From Stereum hirsutum FP-91666 SS1 (Eukaryota; Basidiomycota; Agaricomycetes; Russulales; Stereaceae): a stretch of 64,000 nt of DNA. The translations under genes were made by a program, and so were the position numbers. The DNA lies in contig NW_006763131.1 in the NCBI RefSeq assembly GCF_000264905.1, positions 2,241,939 to 2,305,938 of the forward strand. Reading direction: 5' to 3'. Each line of letters begins with the position of its first letter. Within the stretch, counting starts at the first letter, position 1. The notes under the pieces are model-generated. The model had not been told where the DNA came from. It saw only the letters and a program-made list of their open reading frames with translations, and did not search any database. Of this stretch, positions 33,707 to 45,374 are shown piece by piece.

Positions 33707-36700
33707 TTAGTCTCCGAACATGAGTTTCAAATTCTGGATGCTCTCCGGGTCTGCCGCAGTTCCCTTATCCTTCGCCTGAGTCCCGCGGAACGCTTCCTTT
33801 ACGAGCGCTGTCTTGCGTTTCTGAATCTGGAGGATGCGGCCTTCGATCGTGTCTTCGACCTATGCATAACGGACGACAACAACAAACAAGATATGGATGA
33901 GCACATGGGCCATCATGCGAAACGGCCTGTATAAGATAGAAGTGGGTAAAAGAAGGGTGGGTGGGACTGACGATGAAGTGCGTGACATATACGGTCTTTT
34001 CTTGACCGATACGGTGAACGCGGTCGATGGCTAGAAGAGTGAGAAGTGCCGTCAAACGAATGATATGGTGGAAGGAGCACTGCACGACGAACCTTGGTTC
34101 TCGATGGCAGCGTTCCACCAGCAGTCCATCTGTAAACAATAGTATTAGCTACACAGAAAACCCAGGATATTCCACCCGTCCTTCACCATGAATACATGAT
34201 TAGCCGTGGTCAACTGCCAGGGTCCAGAGTCTGATCAGGGTCCAGTGACAAAATGGTAGACGAGGGTGGAGGTACAACATACATTCAAACCCACACCCCC
34301 TGCCTTCAAACTAATGATCAGCACTTTCGGTCTCCTCGACGGCGCTTTGAACTCAGCGACGGCTGCGCTCTTCTTCTTCATATCCATCGTACCGTCGAAA
34401 CGACAGAATGTGATGTGCTCGCGTTCGAGCGCTGTGCCAATCAAATCAAGGAAGGAGGTGAATTGGCTGAACACGACCGCGCGGAAGCAAGGATCTTGGT
34501 CCTGGAGGCGACCTAGAAGAGTCGATACACGGGTCAGAATAGTGTTCAGGCGCGAAATGCAGTCAACCACGAATTGAATATGATATTTATAAGAGTGCGG
34601 GACGAAGCAAGAATACTTACGAAGATTTTGGAGTAGGGCATCGAGTTTCGTGGAAGAACGGAAATCGTTGCGACGGATGATCACATCGGGGACTGAGACC
34701 TGAGAGCTAGGCTGCGAGACGGTAACTTTCGCTTTTCGTGGTCGGAAGACTTCCAGCATATCTTTCTCCTGCGTGCGTAGTCGATAGTCGAGTGAGCTCG
34801 CGGGCTTCGTACCGGCATTCGGAAGGGATCGAAAGCACACTTACCTTTACAGGCCCGCGATTACAGCTCGGACAACATACAGAGTCTCCTTTCGCCAAGC
34901 TTGTCTCGAAGTATCCAGCTACACAGTCCTTGCAACTGAAATAGCAACAATGCCGTTTTGTCAGTATAATTTGACAACAATAATTCTGAAGGGTCTGACC
35001 ATTGATGCATGCACTCAGGAAACATCATCGGGTGATCCATCACATCCATGCATAGAGGACATTCCGCTTCCTCACCATTGTTCGATAAATTGTTAAGGAC
35101 GCCCTCTGCGAAAGTGTTACCAGGAGCGGCCGGGGTTGATTCATCGCCTTTGCTGTCACTAGTAGACTGTGTGAACTTTTCGATCATACTGTCTACATCG
35201 ACTGGTCCAGAGGCGGTTGGCTGATTCTCTTCGTCGTCGTCAGACAGGACGAGGCTAGGATGAAGAACCGCTCGACGCAATCTATGTACGCCAGTTGTTA
35301 GTCGAGACGAATGTGGGGAAGCGAGATGTCAGTTCTCATACCGCATAAGCATGGCCAATATATGCGAGTAATTCTTGCCGACGAGGCCTTTCACCCTTAG
35401 TTGCTCGAAGTCCTTCTTGGCGGAATGATAAATGGAGTCGTAGATGTCTCGTTCGGATTTCGAGAAAGACAAGGTGTCCACAGTAATCTAGAAATGGAGT
35501 TGACGAGGACATGAAATAGAGGGTAAGTGTAGGAAGCCTACCTCCTTCGGCGGGAGCTCAACAATGCGGTTGCCGTCACTATCGCGGAACGTTTTCTCTC
35601 TGCGTAGCAAAACGCTTTCCAGGATGACTTGCACGACTTCGATGGCCTTGGGATCGTGAGCAAGGAAGGGCAATGTGATAAAGCTGCATGGTCATTGGTT
35701 AAGGTAGGCAAACATACAAACGATAACAAGGATGCGGACGTACGAGCGAAAGAAGGCGTAATCAGACCAGGGAGCGAAGTTTAAGAATTTTCTGTAAAAC
35801 TCAGTCAGTGGCGGTTTTCGACGTAGAGATCTTCACATGAGCTGGCTCACAAGAGCGAGAAAAGATCTTCCACTCGGTTCACAATTGGAGTGCCTGTCAC
35901 AGCCCAGCGCCGACGAGCCTCCAAAGCAAAGACCGCCTTAGCTGCCTTGCTCGTTCGGGACTTGCAATGGTGGGCTTCATCGAGCACGATACGCAGCCAT
36001 TCGCCTGTAGGAAAGGAAGTTATTGTGTCATGATTAAGGGTGAATAAAACATAGTCGACATACCTGTGAAAATTGGAGATGTCAACTTCCCCGACTTGTC
36101 CACCTTCGAGTGTTCCGACACGAGAACCCCGTAGGACGTGATGACCACGTTGGCCGTCCCCTCATCCTCAGCTTCGATAACTGTATCCAGATCCAAACGG
36201 TTCTGACCGTGCCACACTAGTGTCTTGACGGTTCCAGGTTTACTGCAACGCTCGAGTTCTTCTGCCCACTGGTTCAGCAAGGATGTCGGTGCCACGATGA
36301 GGGTGGCACATGGACCTTTGGGAGGCTTGGCAGGGGTCGTTCGAGCTTGCGCACGAAAAGCGCTGTCGAGCTTCAGTTGACGAGGTTTGGAGGGTTGCCC
36401 AGATGGAGGAACCGATGTGGCATCAGGTCCGCGGTTGGTGTGAATGAGGGACGAAATCATGATGGTTTTACCCATCCCCACTAATAACGAGTTGAGTGAT
36501 CAGTAAAAAATGCAACATAATTTGCCGTTCTTACTTACTTTCTATGCAAAACACCATAAGAATGAATGATTGTCAGTAAATGAGGCTGGAGTTGCTGCAA
36601 GCAAAGGAAATATTACCATCACTATGTAAATAGACGTTTAAGCACTTTTAAGCATCAAAAAAGCAAACAAACATACGCACGCAAGTATTCCGCCCCTGCA

Positions 36701-38408
36701 CTGCTGGTCCGCTTTCGGGAAATCCAAACTCAGCTCTCCAGAGTATGAATTGAAGTAAAATGGTGGCTGTTCAACGTCGTCCGTGAGGTCGATGACTCCA
36801 CCGATCGGCTCCACCGGAAAATGATACCTGTATTTGTTGTCAGTGAGGATAGGATAGTACAAGCATGCAACCTACTCATTCCAGAGAGGGTGCATAGAGG
36901 CAGCTTCACGAGCAGATATAAGCCCGTTTTCCAGAGAGTGCATCCAACTGGAACTAGTCAATACATGCGCAGGAACCCAACGAAGATAAACCGCACCATA
37001 GTGCTTGCTTCTGGTAACCTCGCAAAGTTAGAGCGAAGCTATCGGAAGGCTCCATCTCTGCCATATTTCGATCATTCTGTTGTGCTCTAGGCGGGCATAA
37101 GCAAATCGTGTAACCCAGAATGATTACTGAACCTGCAATACCTTTTGTATATAGAATTCAGCTCGTCCTCGGATAATTCTTCCCCTTCCCCTTCTTCCTC
37201 TTCTTCGTCGCCAGTGCTCTTAGTCTTCGCAACCTGAACAGGCTCGTCAGGCTTATTAACCTCATTACGGAGGCCAAGTTCGGAGGCGTCGTTTCCCCGT
37301 GTAGGTTTCAAGCCTACGGCTTGGAACAGACGACCTAGGGCCTTCTTGCGCTCGCGCAAGGTCTGCTCTTCCGTCGTCTCCTTGCCTTGATCAAACATAG
37401 TTTTGCGAGGCTCTGAGTTCGAGACCTTGGGCTTCTGGAAAGCTGATGCTTTGATCCTGACGGACAACGATACTACGAGGTCCATGCCAGATCGGAGCTC
37501 TGCGGGGCATTCTACCATTGAGCTTCCTCGAAAGTCAACGATGCCTAGCAGCAGTTTTAGCACACTCTACAGTGTAGATATCATGACCGTACCTTGTTCC
37601 AACAGAGGATAGATCCATTCAGCCTCTCCTTGAGGAATACGACCAAACTCTGGGAGCTACCGTCAGCAGGCATACATCGTTGAAAAAAATGCGCCGTACC
37701 AAAACCACGATCATTCGTGAGCCGAACGATTGTAGTGAGCTTTTTCTTCACGGGTTTAGCGTTCTTGGCCTGAAAAGCACTCGTCAAAGTGGTTTGCTTT
37801 TTCTTGCTCTTGTCTTTTGCTCCGGTGGGTTTGGACGAAGTATGTTTGGAAGAGGTCATAGAATCTTCCCCGGCATCAATCTCGACCCGAACAGCATCTC
37901 CGGGTTTGATGTATCCTTTCCCCCTGGCAGTGGCCCAGGCGTTACCAATAATAAAGGTACCGACGTAGGCCGAGGAGAATACCGGCTTTTTAACCTGTGG
38001 TAGGGAGAGGCGGCGCCTCTTCGCAGGAGGAGGGCTAGTTTCGCGAATAGAAGGAGAGCGTGACAGAGATTTGACCGAGGCGTGCGCTGAAGGGCCGGGT
38101 GCAGGTGGACTGGATGAACGCGGTGGGTCGAGCGACAGGGTGTCATCGACATTCATGGGATCATCAGCGAGTAGCGGTTCGCCCTCATCGTCACTGCCAG
38201 CAAGAAATAAGGGCTCTCTGGACTCTGACACGGCTTCTGTCTCTGAGTTTGGTTCACTGAGCGCGTCCTGAAGAGGCTCAGGCTCAGCGTCCGTCGGTGG
38301 GACATCGTCGTGGTCATCGTCAAGGGACATGGACTCCGTAATAATGTCGGTGCTAGTCTCAGGCTCGTCTTCAGGATCAGCAAAGAAGTACGGTTTATCG
38401 GATAGCAT
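33707..38408 (-). CDS. RAD5: DNA repair helicase/ubiquitin ligase Rad5 (HIRAN-SNF2-RING)
   Basis: SWI/SNF2 ATPase and RING E3 that polyubiquitinates PCNA at stalled forks for template switching. Start [16 protein letters not shown]. Order seen: acidic N-terminus, nuclear-localisation patch [18 protein letters not shown] domain ([20 protein letters not shown]), [20 protein letters not shown], Walker [20 protein letters not shown], motif II in [40 protein letters not shown] ([21 protein letters not shown], then CKDCVAGYF and CPSCN), helicase C half ([44 protein letters not shown]) and the end NLKLMFGD. The Walker A codons are assembled from two micro-exons (36617-36621 and 36539-36541). First exon 37700-38408. 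Divergent from CCT7 across 175 bases. Confidence 0.95.
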
Positions 38409-38583: not shown

Positions 38584-40573
38584 ATGCAACGCGGCCTGCC
38601 TATGGTAATATATCTCGTTCTGCGTGATAGCGTCTTGATCTGATGTTCTGCTCATATTGCTCAGCAACCTACTGTCGTGCTCTTGAAAGAGGGCACCGAT
38701 ACATCGCAGGGCAAAGGACAGCTGCTCTCCAATATCTCAGCATGTCTTGCAGTCGCAGAAACCCTTTCCAGTACGCTTGGTCCTAGGGGTATGGACAAGC
38801 TCATCATCAATCAAAGGGGGGACGCTCAGATTACCAACGACGGTGCGACTATCCTGAAGCTTCTGGACATCGTCCATCCTGCGGCTCGTACTTTGGTCGA
38901 CATTGCCCGCGCTCAAGATGCCGAAGTTGGAGATGGCACGACGTCTGTAACTTTGTTGGCTGCTCAGCTGCTGAAGGAAGTGCGAGGGTACATCGAGGAG
39001 GACGTTAGCCCGCATATCATCATGAAAGGATTCAGGCAGGCTTCCCAGTTGGTGCATACATTTCTCGCCTTAGTTAGCGCTTTCCTATCATATTTACGCT
39101 TTTTTTGCAGGCCATCGACAGGATCAAAGCCATCCAGGTTACCATGGACAAATCAGATCCAGAGTATGGACCCTATTACTTCTATAAACTTCGCATCCTG
39201 ACGTCACGCTACGATGCATCCACAGAAAGTTCCGCTCTCTTTTGCTTAAGTGTGCCTCGACGTCGATGTCATCCAAACTCATACATTCCGAAAAACCCTT
39301 CTTTGCCAAGATGGTCGTAGATGCCGTGCAGTCTCTGGATCAGAGCGATCTTGACGAGTCCCTCATTGGCGTGAAGAAAATCGCAGGCGGCGGCATGCAG
39401 GACTCACTTCTCATCCGTGGCGTTGCCTTCAAAAAAACTTTCACCTACGCCGGCGCAGAGCAGCAACCCAAATCTTTCGTCGACCCCCTCATCCTCTGTC
39501 TCAACGTCGAGCTCGAGCTGAAGGCGGAGAAAGACAACGCAGAAGTGCGAGTCGAGGCCGTATCTGATTACCAGGCTATCGTCGATGCGGAGTGGGAGAT
39601 CATCTATCGGAAGTTGGACGAGATTGAGAAGACAGGCGCAAAGGTTGTTCTCAGCAAACTACCAATTGGCGACCTTGCGACCCAGTGGTTCGCCGATAGG
39701 GACATCTTCTGTGCTGGTCGTGTGCCCGCCGGAGATCTTCGCAGAGTTGTGCAGGCTGTGGGAGGTTCCATCCAGTCGACGACGTCCGATATTCAACGAG
39801 AGCATCTGGGAACGTGTGGCAGGTTCGACGAGAGGCAGATCGGAGGGGAGCGATTCAACGTTTTCGAGGATTGCCCAAAGGCGAAGACGTGCACGCTACT
39901 TCTGCGTGGCGGTGCCGAGCAGTTTATCGAGGAGGTGGAACGCAGTCTCCACGACGCCATCATGGTCGTTAAACGCGCGGTACGAAATGGCGAGGTTGTC
40001 GCTGGTGGCGGTGCCATCGAGGTACGCACATATCGGCAGGTATGAGATCTTACTATACTGATCATGGTTTGCGTAGATGGACCTATCCGCACACATCCGG
40101 AAGCACGCTTTGTCCATACCTGGGAAGCTGCAGCTGGTCCAAATTGCGTTCGCCAAGGCGTTGGAGATCATCCCCCGTCAAATTTGCGACAATGCCGGTC
40201 TCGACTCCACCGACATCCTGAACAAGCTTCGCATGAAGCACGCCAACGGCGAGACATGGGTCGGTGTTGACGTCGATGGGCCTGAAGGCGTTCGTGACAA
40301 CATGGAGGCATTTGTCTGGGAGCCCAGTCTCATCAAGGTTAACGCGATCAGCAGCGCTGTCGAAGCTGCTTGCCTGATCATAAGCGTTGATGAGACCGTC
40401 AGGAACCCGCAGAGCGAAGCGGTACGTCTCTTCTGATCATCGTCCCCTTTCCATCGTCCTCTTTTTCATGCGCTCACTAAACCCGCCTCTAGCCACAAGC
40501 AGGGCCTAAAGCGCCACCCGGAACGGCTCAGCGTGCGTTGAGAGGTAGAGGACGAGGCGTGCCGCGGCGATAA
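38584..40573 (+). CDS. CCT7: T-complex protein 1 subunit eta (chaperonin CCT7)
   Basis: Subunit of the cytosolic TRiC/CCT chaperonin, which folds actin, tubulin and WD-repeat proteins. Exons: 38584-38604, 38665-39051, 39111-39163, 39226-40021, 40077-40421, 40493-40573 (1683 bases, 560 aa, normal for the family). Seen: [41 protein letters not shown], the ATPase motif [17 protein letters not shown]-type apical text [42 protein letters not shown], the eta-type [14 protein letters not shown], and [20 protein letters not shown]. The C-terminus ends with an Arg/Gly-rich tail. The first coding exon is 21 bases. Confidence 0.97.
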
Positions 40574-44894: not shown

Positions 44895-45374
44895 TGCCAT
44901 TGTTTTGAGCTTGGTTGTTCGATTGCGTGGGCATATGGGCTGAACGCTCGCAGACCGCAGTATCAGAACGATTAGGCAGGAATAGATAGGCCAACACTGG
45001 TGTGCATCCATGTAACCATCAGTTCCGCCTATTGCGGCTGGAGCTTTGTGGTGGGTATGCCTCGAATGAACGTTGTCCTTGAAACCGGTGGTAAAAAAGC
45101 TGCCAAACACGGCAAAGAAAAGACGAATGCGTCGTCTGGACGCTGACAGCAGGATTTGAACCTACGCGGGCAATGCCCAAGTGATAATTGAGAGTTCAAA
45201 TCACTCGCCTTAACGACTCGGCCATATCAGCTTAACTTTGTGTCCTCTAAGAGGCAACATGGCTTTTTCCAGCGGCCTCACATGAAGATGCCGGCCCTGC
45301 GAGGATGAGCTGCCACTGACCTACGACCACCGTGAACGATCGCAATTGACCCTACACCCGCTGAGAGAGGTGCC
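44895..45374. other. Intergenic containing tRNA-Ser
   Basis: Between the BSP peptidase stop and LSM1 start; carries tRNA-Ser at 45141-45231. The remainder shows no gene. Confidence 0.5.
45141..45231 (-). tRNA. tRNA-Ser (anticodon UGA), with a short intron
   Basis: On the minus strand the acceptor arms GCTGATA and TGTCAGC pair (one G-T), followed by discriminator G. A D stem GCC/GGC, anticodon stem AGTGA/TCACT, long type II variable arm (GGGC/GCCC) and T arm GTAGG-TTCAAAT-CCTGC are all present. The anticodon loop reads TTTGAA, then an intron of about 9 bases (CTCTCAATT), then A. Positions 34-36 are TGA. The long variable arm with UGA anticodon identifies serine. No CCA is encoded, as normal in eukaryotes. 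Confidence 0.9.

Follow-up and report, generated by a model that had tools for sequence, protein, structure and literature searches.

Tandem microexons of 5 and 3 nucleotides probably complete the Walker A motif of Rad5 in Stereum hirsutum and appear to be widely mis-annotated among mushroom-forming fungi

The window, a 64,000-nucleotide stretch of the Stereum hirsutum FP-91666 SS1 genome (contig NW_006763131.1), carries on its minus strand a clean Rad5/HLTF-type gene (33707..38408, spanning 4702 nt). Our manual, homolog-corrected model comprises 21 coding exons and 20 GT-AG introns and encodes 1139 amino acids, the terminal stop being the only one in the spliced frame. Specifically, a HIRAN domain (PF08797; 40.6 bits versus a cut-off of 24.7; residues 154-282) lies N-terminal to SNF2, of which both the N-terminal half (PF00176, 207.3 bits) and Helicase_C (PF00271, 70.6 bits) score above their Pfam cut-offs. 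RING-like cysteines (CPLC...CMHQCCKDC...CPSC) occupy residues ~871-916 between the helicase halves, where RING models fell short of their cut-offs (20.9 bits against 27, 20.1 against 21 and 20 against 25.2), with the cysteine pattern itself visible. The gene carries the GGILADEMGxGKT motif I of Rad5/HLTF, reading ADEMGMGKT where the Rad5 of K. lactis (structure 6l8n) reads ADEMGLGKT, a difference of M for L. Homologs are often named DNA repair protein RAD5, one of them (P0004) matching 6l8n with an E-value of 6.3e-137, and four among the best homologs, compared over residues 400-900, are 69-71% identical to the gene, the best coming from a Russulales species. A pseudogene or a duplicate copy is ruled out by the open 1139-residue frame and by the one match obtained when the 46-Mb assembly was searched with the motif I stretch. 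Divergent from Rad5 and separated from it by a short gap are plus-strand open reading frames (~38677-40045) that look, from their motifs, like a CCT/TCP-1 chaperonin subunit, an arrangement that suggests a shared promoter region. The window also contains a tRNA-Gln (TTG) gene of 91 nt on the minus strand (45141-45231).

The A-D-E-M codons of motif I are, with high likelihood, split by three short introns that leave two constitutive microexons, TGATG and AAA. In the direction of transcription (minus strand), a 147-nt exon ending in R-G-G-I-L-A (GGA ATA CTT GC; 36681..36827) is followed by a 59-nt intron (36622..36680; GTGCGT...ACATAG; phase 2 in the Ala codon) and by the 5-nt exon TGATG (36617..36621), which supplies the end of the Ala codon, the Asp codon and the first base of Glu. 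A 75-nt intron (36542..36616; GTAATA...GCATAG; phase 1 in the Glu codon) then precedes the 3-nt exon AAA (36539..36541), which holds the remainder of the Glu codon and the first base of Met, and a 58-nt intron (36481..36538; GTAAGT...TATTAG; phase 1 in the Met codon) leads to a 417-nt exon (36064..36480) that starts with TGGGGATGGGTAAAACC and reads TG GGG ATG GGT AAA ACC, the rest of Met followed by GMGKT. Counted from the start of the Ala codon, the introns fall at offsets 2, 7 and 10, and the joined codons GCT GAT GAA ATG GGG ATG GGT AAA ACC give ADEMGMGKT. Both microexons are internal and coding, do not exceed 15 nt and are flanked by GT-AG introns; around the shorter one (ATAG/AAA/GTAAGT), three coding bases separate acceptor and donor. 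The cDNA text expected from these junctions across 36,400-36,850 is GCTGATGAAATGGGGATGGGT, and the uninterrupted form of the motif-coding DNA would be GATGAAATGGGG. Re-derivation from the spliced model returned exactly the coordinates and lengths given by the first-pass annotation, and verified the GT and AG ends that it reported for all three introns.

The splice signals resemble those of the gene's other introns, and nothing about them looks specialised. Donor-U1 duplexes of the three introns have predicted energies of -4.0, -5.1 and -7.2 kcal/mol, within the range of the 20 introns, the last value belonging to the GTAAGT donor after the 3-nt exon, the fifth strongest of the 20. Branch-like CTNA motifs are found 13-40 nt before the 3' end of each intron; the CTGAC and CTGAT sites that the first-pass annotation placed in two introns are indeed present, CTGAC in the second (32 nt from the end of the 75-nt intron) and CTGAT in the third (20 nt from the end of the 58-nt intron), and the first contains CTTAA.

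Comparison with relatives drew on 183 distinct homologs obtained from three protein searches (the best 120 of 3736, 2428 and 2724 matches), and in each of these we recorded the residues that precede G[ML]GK; a stricter pattern gave the same result. We take the named homologs to be mushroom-forming fungi, as far as we recognise them, and the seven species looked up in the taxonomy were all Agaricomycetes. The proteins are representatives of 90%-identity clusters, so that minority isoforms would be hidden. All 11 homologs sourced from lgn or jgi (ten and one, respectively) contain ADEM. For nine of the 11 the longest contig measures 3420-4205 nt, the other two having 6154 and 15033 nt, and in eight of these nine short contigs the protein would account for 82% or more of the length. 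Nine contigs are thus shorter than the 4702-nt gene and, for that reason, probably intron-free and cDNA-like; contig size suggests a cDNA origin for the lgn/jgi-sourced proteins.

The 172 homologs annotated from genomes (ncbi) present a different picture, with ADEM in 24, ADV in 36, other text in 93 and no G[ML]GK in the remaining 19. The 36 ADV models read ADVGMGKT or ADVGLGKT, the commonest single wrong text, and ADVGMGKT is the exact product of a missing 3-nt exon. The first search supplied 112 annotated proteins, whose agreement with a transcript-like consensus (eight proteins of that search) is 0.53 for D, 0.27 for E and 0.35 for M, the flanking residues agreeing at 0.98 (A before) and 0.95 (G after). 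Beside the other introns, at residues on which the eight transcript-like proteins are unanimous, the lowest values are 0.63, 0.65 and 0.74 (near 34844, 34620 and 34999). An internal control for annotation accuracy is provided by a small 27-nt exon near helicase motif V (LTTANHVFM; 34187..34213, minus strand), whose printed residues are 0.86-0.97 conserved in annotated relatives, one variable Thr excepted. On these comparisons, other junctions are also imperfect in annotation, none as badly as Walker A.

Discrepancies of this kind occur between close relatives whose proteins come from different sources. Armillaria fumosa P0079, annotated AYV, shares 95.0% identity over 1158 residues with P0037, which reads ADEM; Pisolithus croceorrhizus P0087 (ADGKM) shares 90.1% with P0076 (ADEM), though P. 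tinctorius P0074 is annotated ADEM. Within Gomphales, Ramaria reads ADV, and Gautieria, like Clathrus (Phallales), is garbled between GGILA and GMGKT; the lgn protein P0178 (ADEM) is 68% identical to Gautieria. Coprinopsis cinerea is annotated ADGM and Schizophyllum commune ADEM, and the 24 annotated ADEM models may reflect intron loss in some lineages. Seven annotated proteins (P0121, P0122, P0124, P0128, P0131, P0132 and P0158) begin close to Walker A, on one side of it or the other, which would fit a gene split into two models at the tiny exons. A pattern search for relatives' genomic DNA matched two stretches in each of two contig sets, none of them encoding a relative.

The wrong texts follow a grammar, and it is from the form of these annotation errors that we infer the tiny exons of relatives. 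An acceptor at N/TGGGG requires V, M or L (NTG) immediately before G[ML]GK, which fits all 129 of 129 wrong models (V in 80, M in 27, L in 22), the share of these three among other inserted residues being ~0.20-0.21. Of the 67 wrong models that keep A-D, 63 continue with V (40) or G (23), matching GATG joined to TG, which gives V, or GATG read into GT, which gives G; the rest have E, E, Q and H. Among the 63 that keep GGILA and lose D, the following residue is one of F, L, S, Y, C and W in 37, as expected from read-through of GC/GT (P ~6e-6, at 19 of 61 codons), and does not fit it in 26; 18 models lacking GGILA are excluded from these after-A counts, which use the strict pattern. In 14 wrong models the text closes with EM ahead of GMGK, preceded by A, S, T or I in 12, by L in one and by D in one (P0125); the residues A, S, T, I and L are those possible for ..NNA G/AA A/TG, and P0125 (...S-DEM) may have D-E-M contiguous. 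The text ACKVM, found in both Leucogyrophana mollusca P0026 (Boletales) and Amanita thiersii P0159 (Agaricales), is letter for letter the sixth chain listed from the window in the enumeration described below, which is consistent with AAA followed by GTRA in these two genes as well. Absence of the first intron could likewise produce ADV, which is therefore evidence for the 3-nt exon alone. Such indirect marks of conservation span Russulales, Boletales, Agaricales, Hymenochaetales, Gomphales and Phallales (seven species looked up). Most simply read, these patterns would place the origin of the 3-nt exon before Phallomycetidae diverged from the other orders sampled, and would put a 5-nt exon at least in those genes whose text runs on into GC/GT.

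The two exons differ in what their omission is computed to do. Leaving out the 3-nt exon (cDNA text GCTGATGTGGGG) keeps the frame and yields a full-length protein reading ADVGMGKT, with one residue lost and G-K-T intact. Leaving out the 5-nt exon or both exons, or retaining any one of the three introns, introduces a stop at residues 497-509, shortly past Walker A, and messages of this kind would yield no helicase. The first-pass annotation had held that missing either exon would break the frame or destroy the nucleotide-binding site; the notion that skipping either one always breaks the frame was rejected because the 3-nt skip is in frame. Its further suggestion, that inclusion could gate helicase activity, finds no backing in the 11 of 11 lgn/jgi-sourced homologs that contain the residues of both exons, nor in the ordinary splice signals, and no sign of an alternative isoform emerged from the sequences examined; there is a strong probability that the exon pair is structural and not a switch.

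The alternative that survives best, unlikely as we consider it, is a regulated switch in which conditional inclusion of the 3-nt exon would yield complete Rad5 in one case and, in the other, an ADVGMGKT form of full length whose ATPase is altered and whose HIRAN and RING are intact. Such a switch is compatible with the in-frame skipping of this exon alone, with an ordinary GTAATA donor ahead of it (-5.1 kcal/mol) and with the prevalence of ADV, which outnumbers any other single wrong text (36 of 172 annotated homologs), and it has a fungal precedent in Trichoderma Xlr2, where the available part of the report describes a 20-nt microexon acting as a glucose switch (PMC11121469). By contrast, ADV occurs in none of the 11 lgn/jgi-sourced homologs, gene finders unable to place a 3-nt exon would predict ADV even if no such mRNA existed, and intron read-through seems to lie behind many of the remaining wrong texts. 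It is correspondingly improbable that a splice switch widely shared among mushrooms provides a second Rad5 with a P-loop one residue shorter. Were this the case, the ADVGMGKT form, its ATPase altered, might still bind DNA and act as a ubiquitin ligase, the remaining splicing errors tested at the tiny exons would abort the protein, and Rad5 output would depend on the accuracy of the spliceosome at an 8-nt coding island.

We enumerated the chains of up to four GT-AG introns of 40-200 nt between GGILA and GMGKT. Twenty stay in frame, a single one of which gives ADEM, and the other 19 give non-consensus text; bridging GGILA to GMGKT by a single ordinary intron is possible in two in-frame chains, but these read ACVL or longer text. 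One of the 20 uses TAA (36537-36535, AAAG/TAA/GTAAGA) instead of AAA as the third exon, giving ADVMGMGKT. The repeat AAAGTAAGTAAG (window 36530-36541, minus strand) begins with the 3-nt exon and offers a second in-frame 3-nt exon. This repeat would permit both choices, and Gelatoporia P0014 is annotated ADVM, exactly the ADVMGMGKT text. The TAA exon nevertheless depends on AAAG as acceptor and GTAAGA as donor where the AAA exon has ATAG/AAA/GTAAGT, turns the conserved Glu into Val and would predict an ADVM text that none of the 11 lgn/jgi-sourced homologs has, which makes it very unlikely; a cDNA text of GCTGATGAAATGGGG would be incompatible with it.

The proximity of acceptor and donor, merely 3 nt apart, also invites an explanation by recursive splicing, under which AAA would be a ratchet-point intermediate absent from the mRNA, and a route combining recursive splicing with intron definition has been proposed for the 1-nt exon of APC11 (PMC4674806, in the part of the article available). 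At a ratchet point, however, AG adjoins GT, whereas here AAA lies between them and is needed for Glu and Met; moreover, loss of AAA would read ADV, which is found in 0 of the 11 lgn/jgi-sourced homologs, and we regard this explanation, too, as highly improbable. For a constitutive AAA exon, a route can be envisioned that follows the intron-definition model in the accessible discussion of the 1-nt exon (PMC4674806). The introns of 59, 75 and 58 nt would each be recognised across themselves, needing no exon, and would be removed successively, because an acceptor and a donor separated by 3 nt would probably not both be bound at once; given its strong GTAAGT donor, the 58-nt intron may leave early.

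Assembly of the motif exceeds chance. In dinucleotide-preserving shuffles of the 200 nt in between (3000 free and 3000 with the real intron ends kept), searched under slightly narrower rules (at most three introns of 40-160 nt), a chain giving ADEMGMGKT was allowed in 0 of 6000. A chance match, in which the real structure differs and the motif merely seems recoverable, can draw on the rarity of reports of fungal exons of such size, but is rendered extremely unlikely by the 0 of 6000 shuffles, by the non-consensus text of the 19 other in-frame chains and by the junction phases common to the annotation errors of relatives. The shuffle control and the 183-homolog comparison agree in upholding the tandem 5-nt and 3-nt exons, first recognised in the initial reading of this DNA, as completing the Walker A motif of Rad5.

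Exons of comparable size are known outside fungi, and the view that 3 nt stands at the lower limit of exon size does not survive comparison with plants. According to the available portions of two reports, a constitutive 1-nt exon occurs in Arabidopsis APC11 and another 1-nt exon in VPS55 of land plants (PMC4674806, PMC8831610), and 3 nt as a minimum was rejected on these grounds. Like the Rad5 case, APC11 and VPS55 have an ultra-short exon between introns that is unannotated and needed for the right protein, and that is deeply conserved, as the Rad5 exons probably are; unlike it, they are plant genes with a single tiny exon outside any nucleotide-binding loop. In rice, a figure legend shows adjacent 5-nt and 12-nt microexons in Os08t0562700 (PMC8831610), a neighbouring pair of which the 5-nt member is likewise unannotated, with 17 nt of exon in total versus 8 nt here and in a different, plant gene. 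Drosophila homothorax, as far as the consulted text of the paper describes it (PMC7392893), has an evolutionarily conserved 3-bp coding micro-exon, which differs from that of Rad5 in arising by alternative splicing from a 48-bp exon and in lying between two domains and not in a catalytic motif.

Two parallels are fungal, one of them from the ascomycete Trichoderma. In the basidiomycete Phanerochaete chrysosporium, P450 genes, like Rad5, contain microexons, set there amid frequent 45-55-bp introns, but in the part of the source available the shortest exon is 6 bp, with no tandem pair and no class-wide conservation (PMC1184071). The Xlr2 microexon cited above (PMC11121469) is similarly fungal, unannotated and encodes part of a functional domain, and is unlike the Rad5 exons in being 20 nt long, single and glucose-dependent. 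Papers on Cryptococcus and Rhizoctonia, in their accessible parts, mention microexons only as a TopHat setting (PMC3990503, PMC4014442). Among the open-access matches listed, none addressed tiny Rad5 exons or basidiomycete 3-nt exons in its title or the start of its abstract, and the 8 nt of exon among three introns are smaller than any tandem pair found in this literature, as represented by the portions of it at hand.

The wider SNF2 family offers a possible origin for the arrangement. From 54 SNF2 matches in the same assembly, 20 stretches (L010-L029) were chosen, of which 11 were resolved by script and nine were not. Six of the 11 resolved paralogs have one intron within the 15 nt encoding A-D-E-M-G, and five have none; the offsets from the start of the Ala codon are 2, 7, 9, 12, 12 and 13, five different positions. 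Rad5 has three introns at motif I, the rest of the gene holding 17 in ~3400 nt of coding sequence, and its offset 2 recurs in L016, which also admits less likely readings, and its offset 7 in L022. Motif I thus seems favoured for introns in the SNF2 family, in the manner of a hot spot, in a small sample where shared descent is possible. The Rad5 arrangement probably arose as several favoured intron positions were filled in one gene, a crowding of introns at motif I that would have left the tiny exons behind.

Taken together, the genomic and protein sequences make it probable that the tiny exons are ancient and constitutive, rely on ordinary splice signals and have been widely mis-annotated. 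Errors at Walker A appear to be systematic in the annotation of mushroom Rad5, the microexon arrangement defeating gene finders so that most of the annotated mushroom Rad5 proteins examined would have the wrong text there. If this is right, 148 of the 172 annotated homologs examined (86%) have a wrong or missing Walker A, which would make domain searches, structure predictions and evolutionary claims unsafe at this site. With its location in a catalytic loop and its marks across mushroom orders, the exon pair would offer a natural test of a spliceosome working across short introns against splice sites 3 nt apart.
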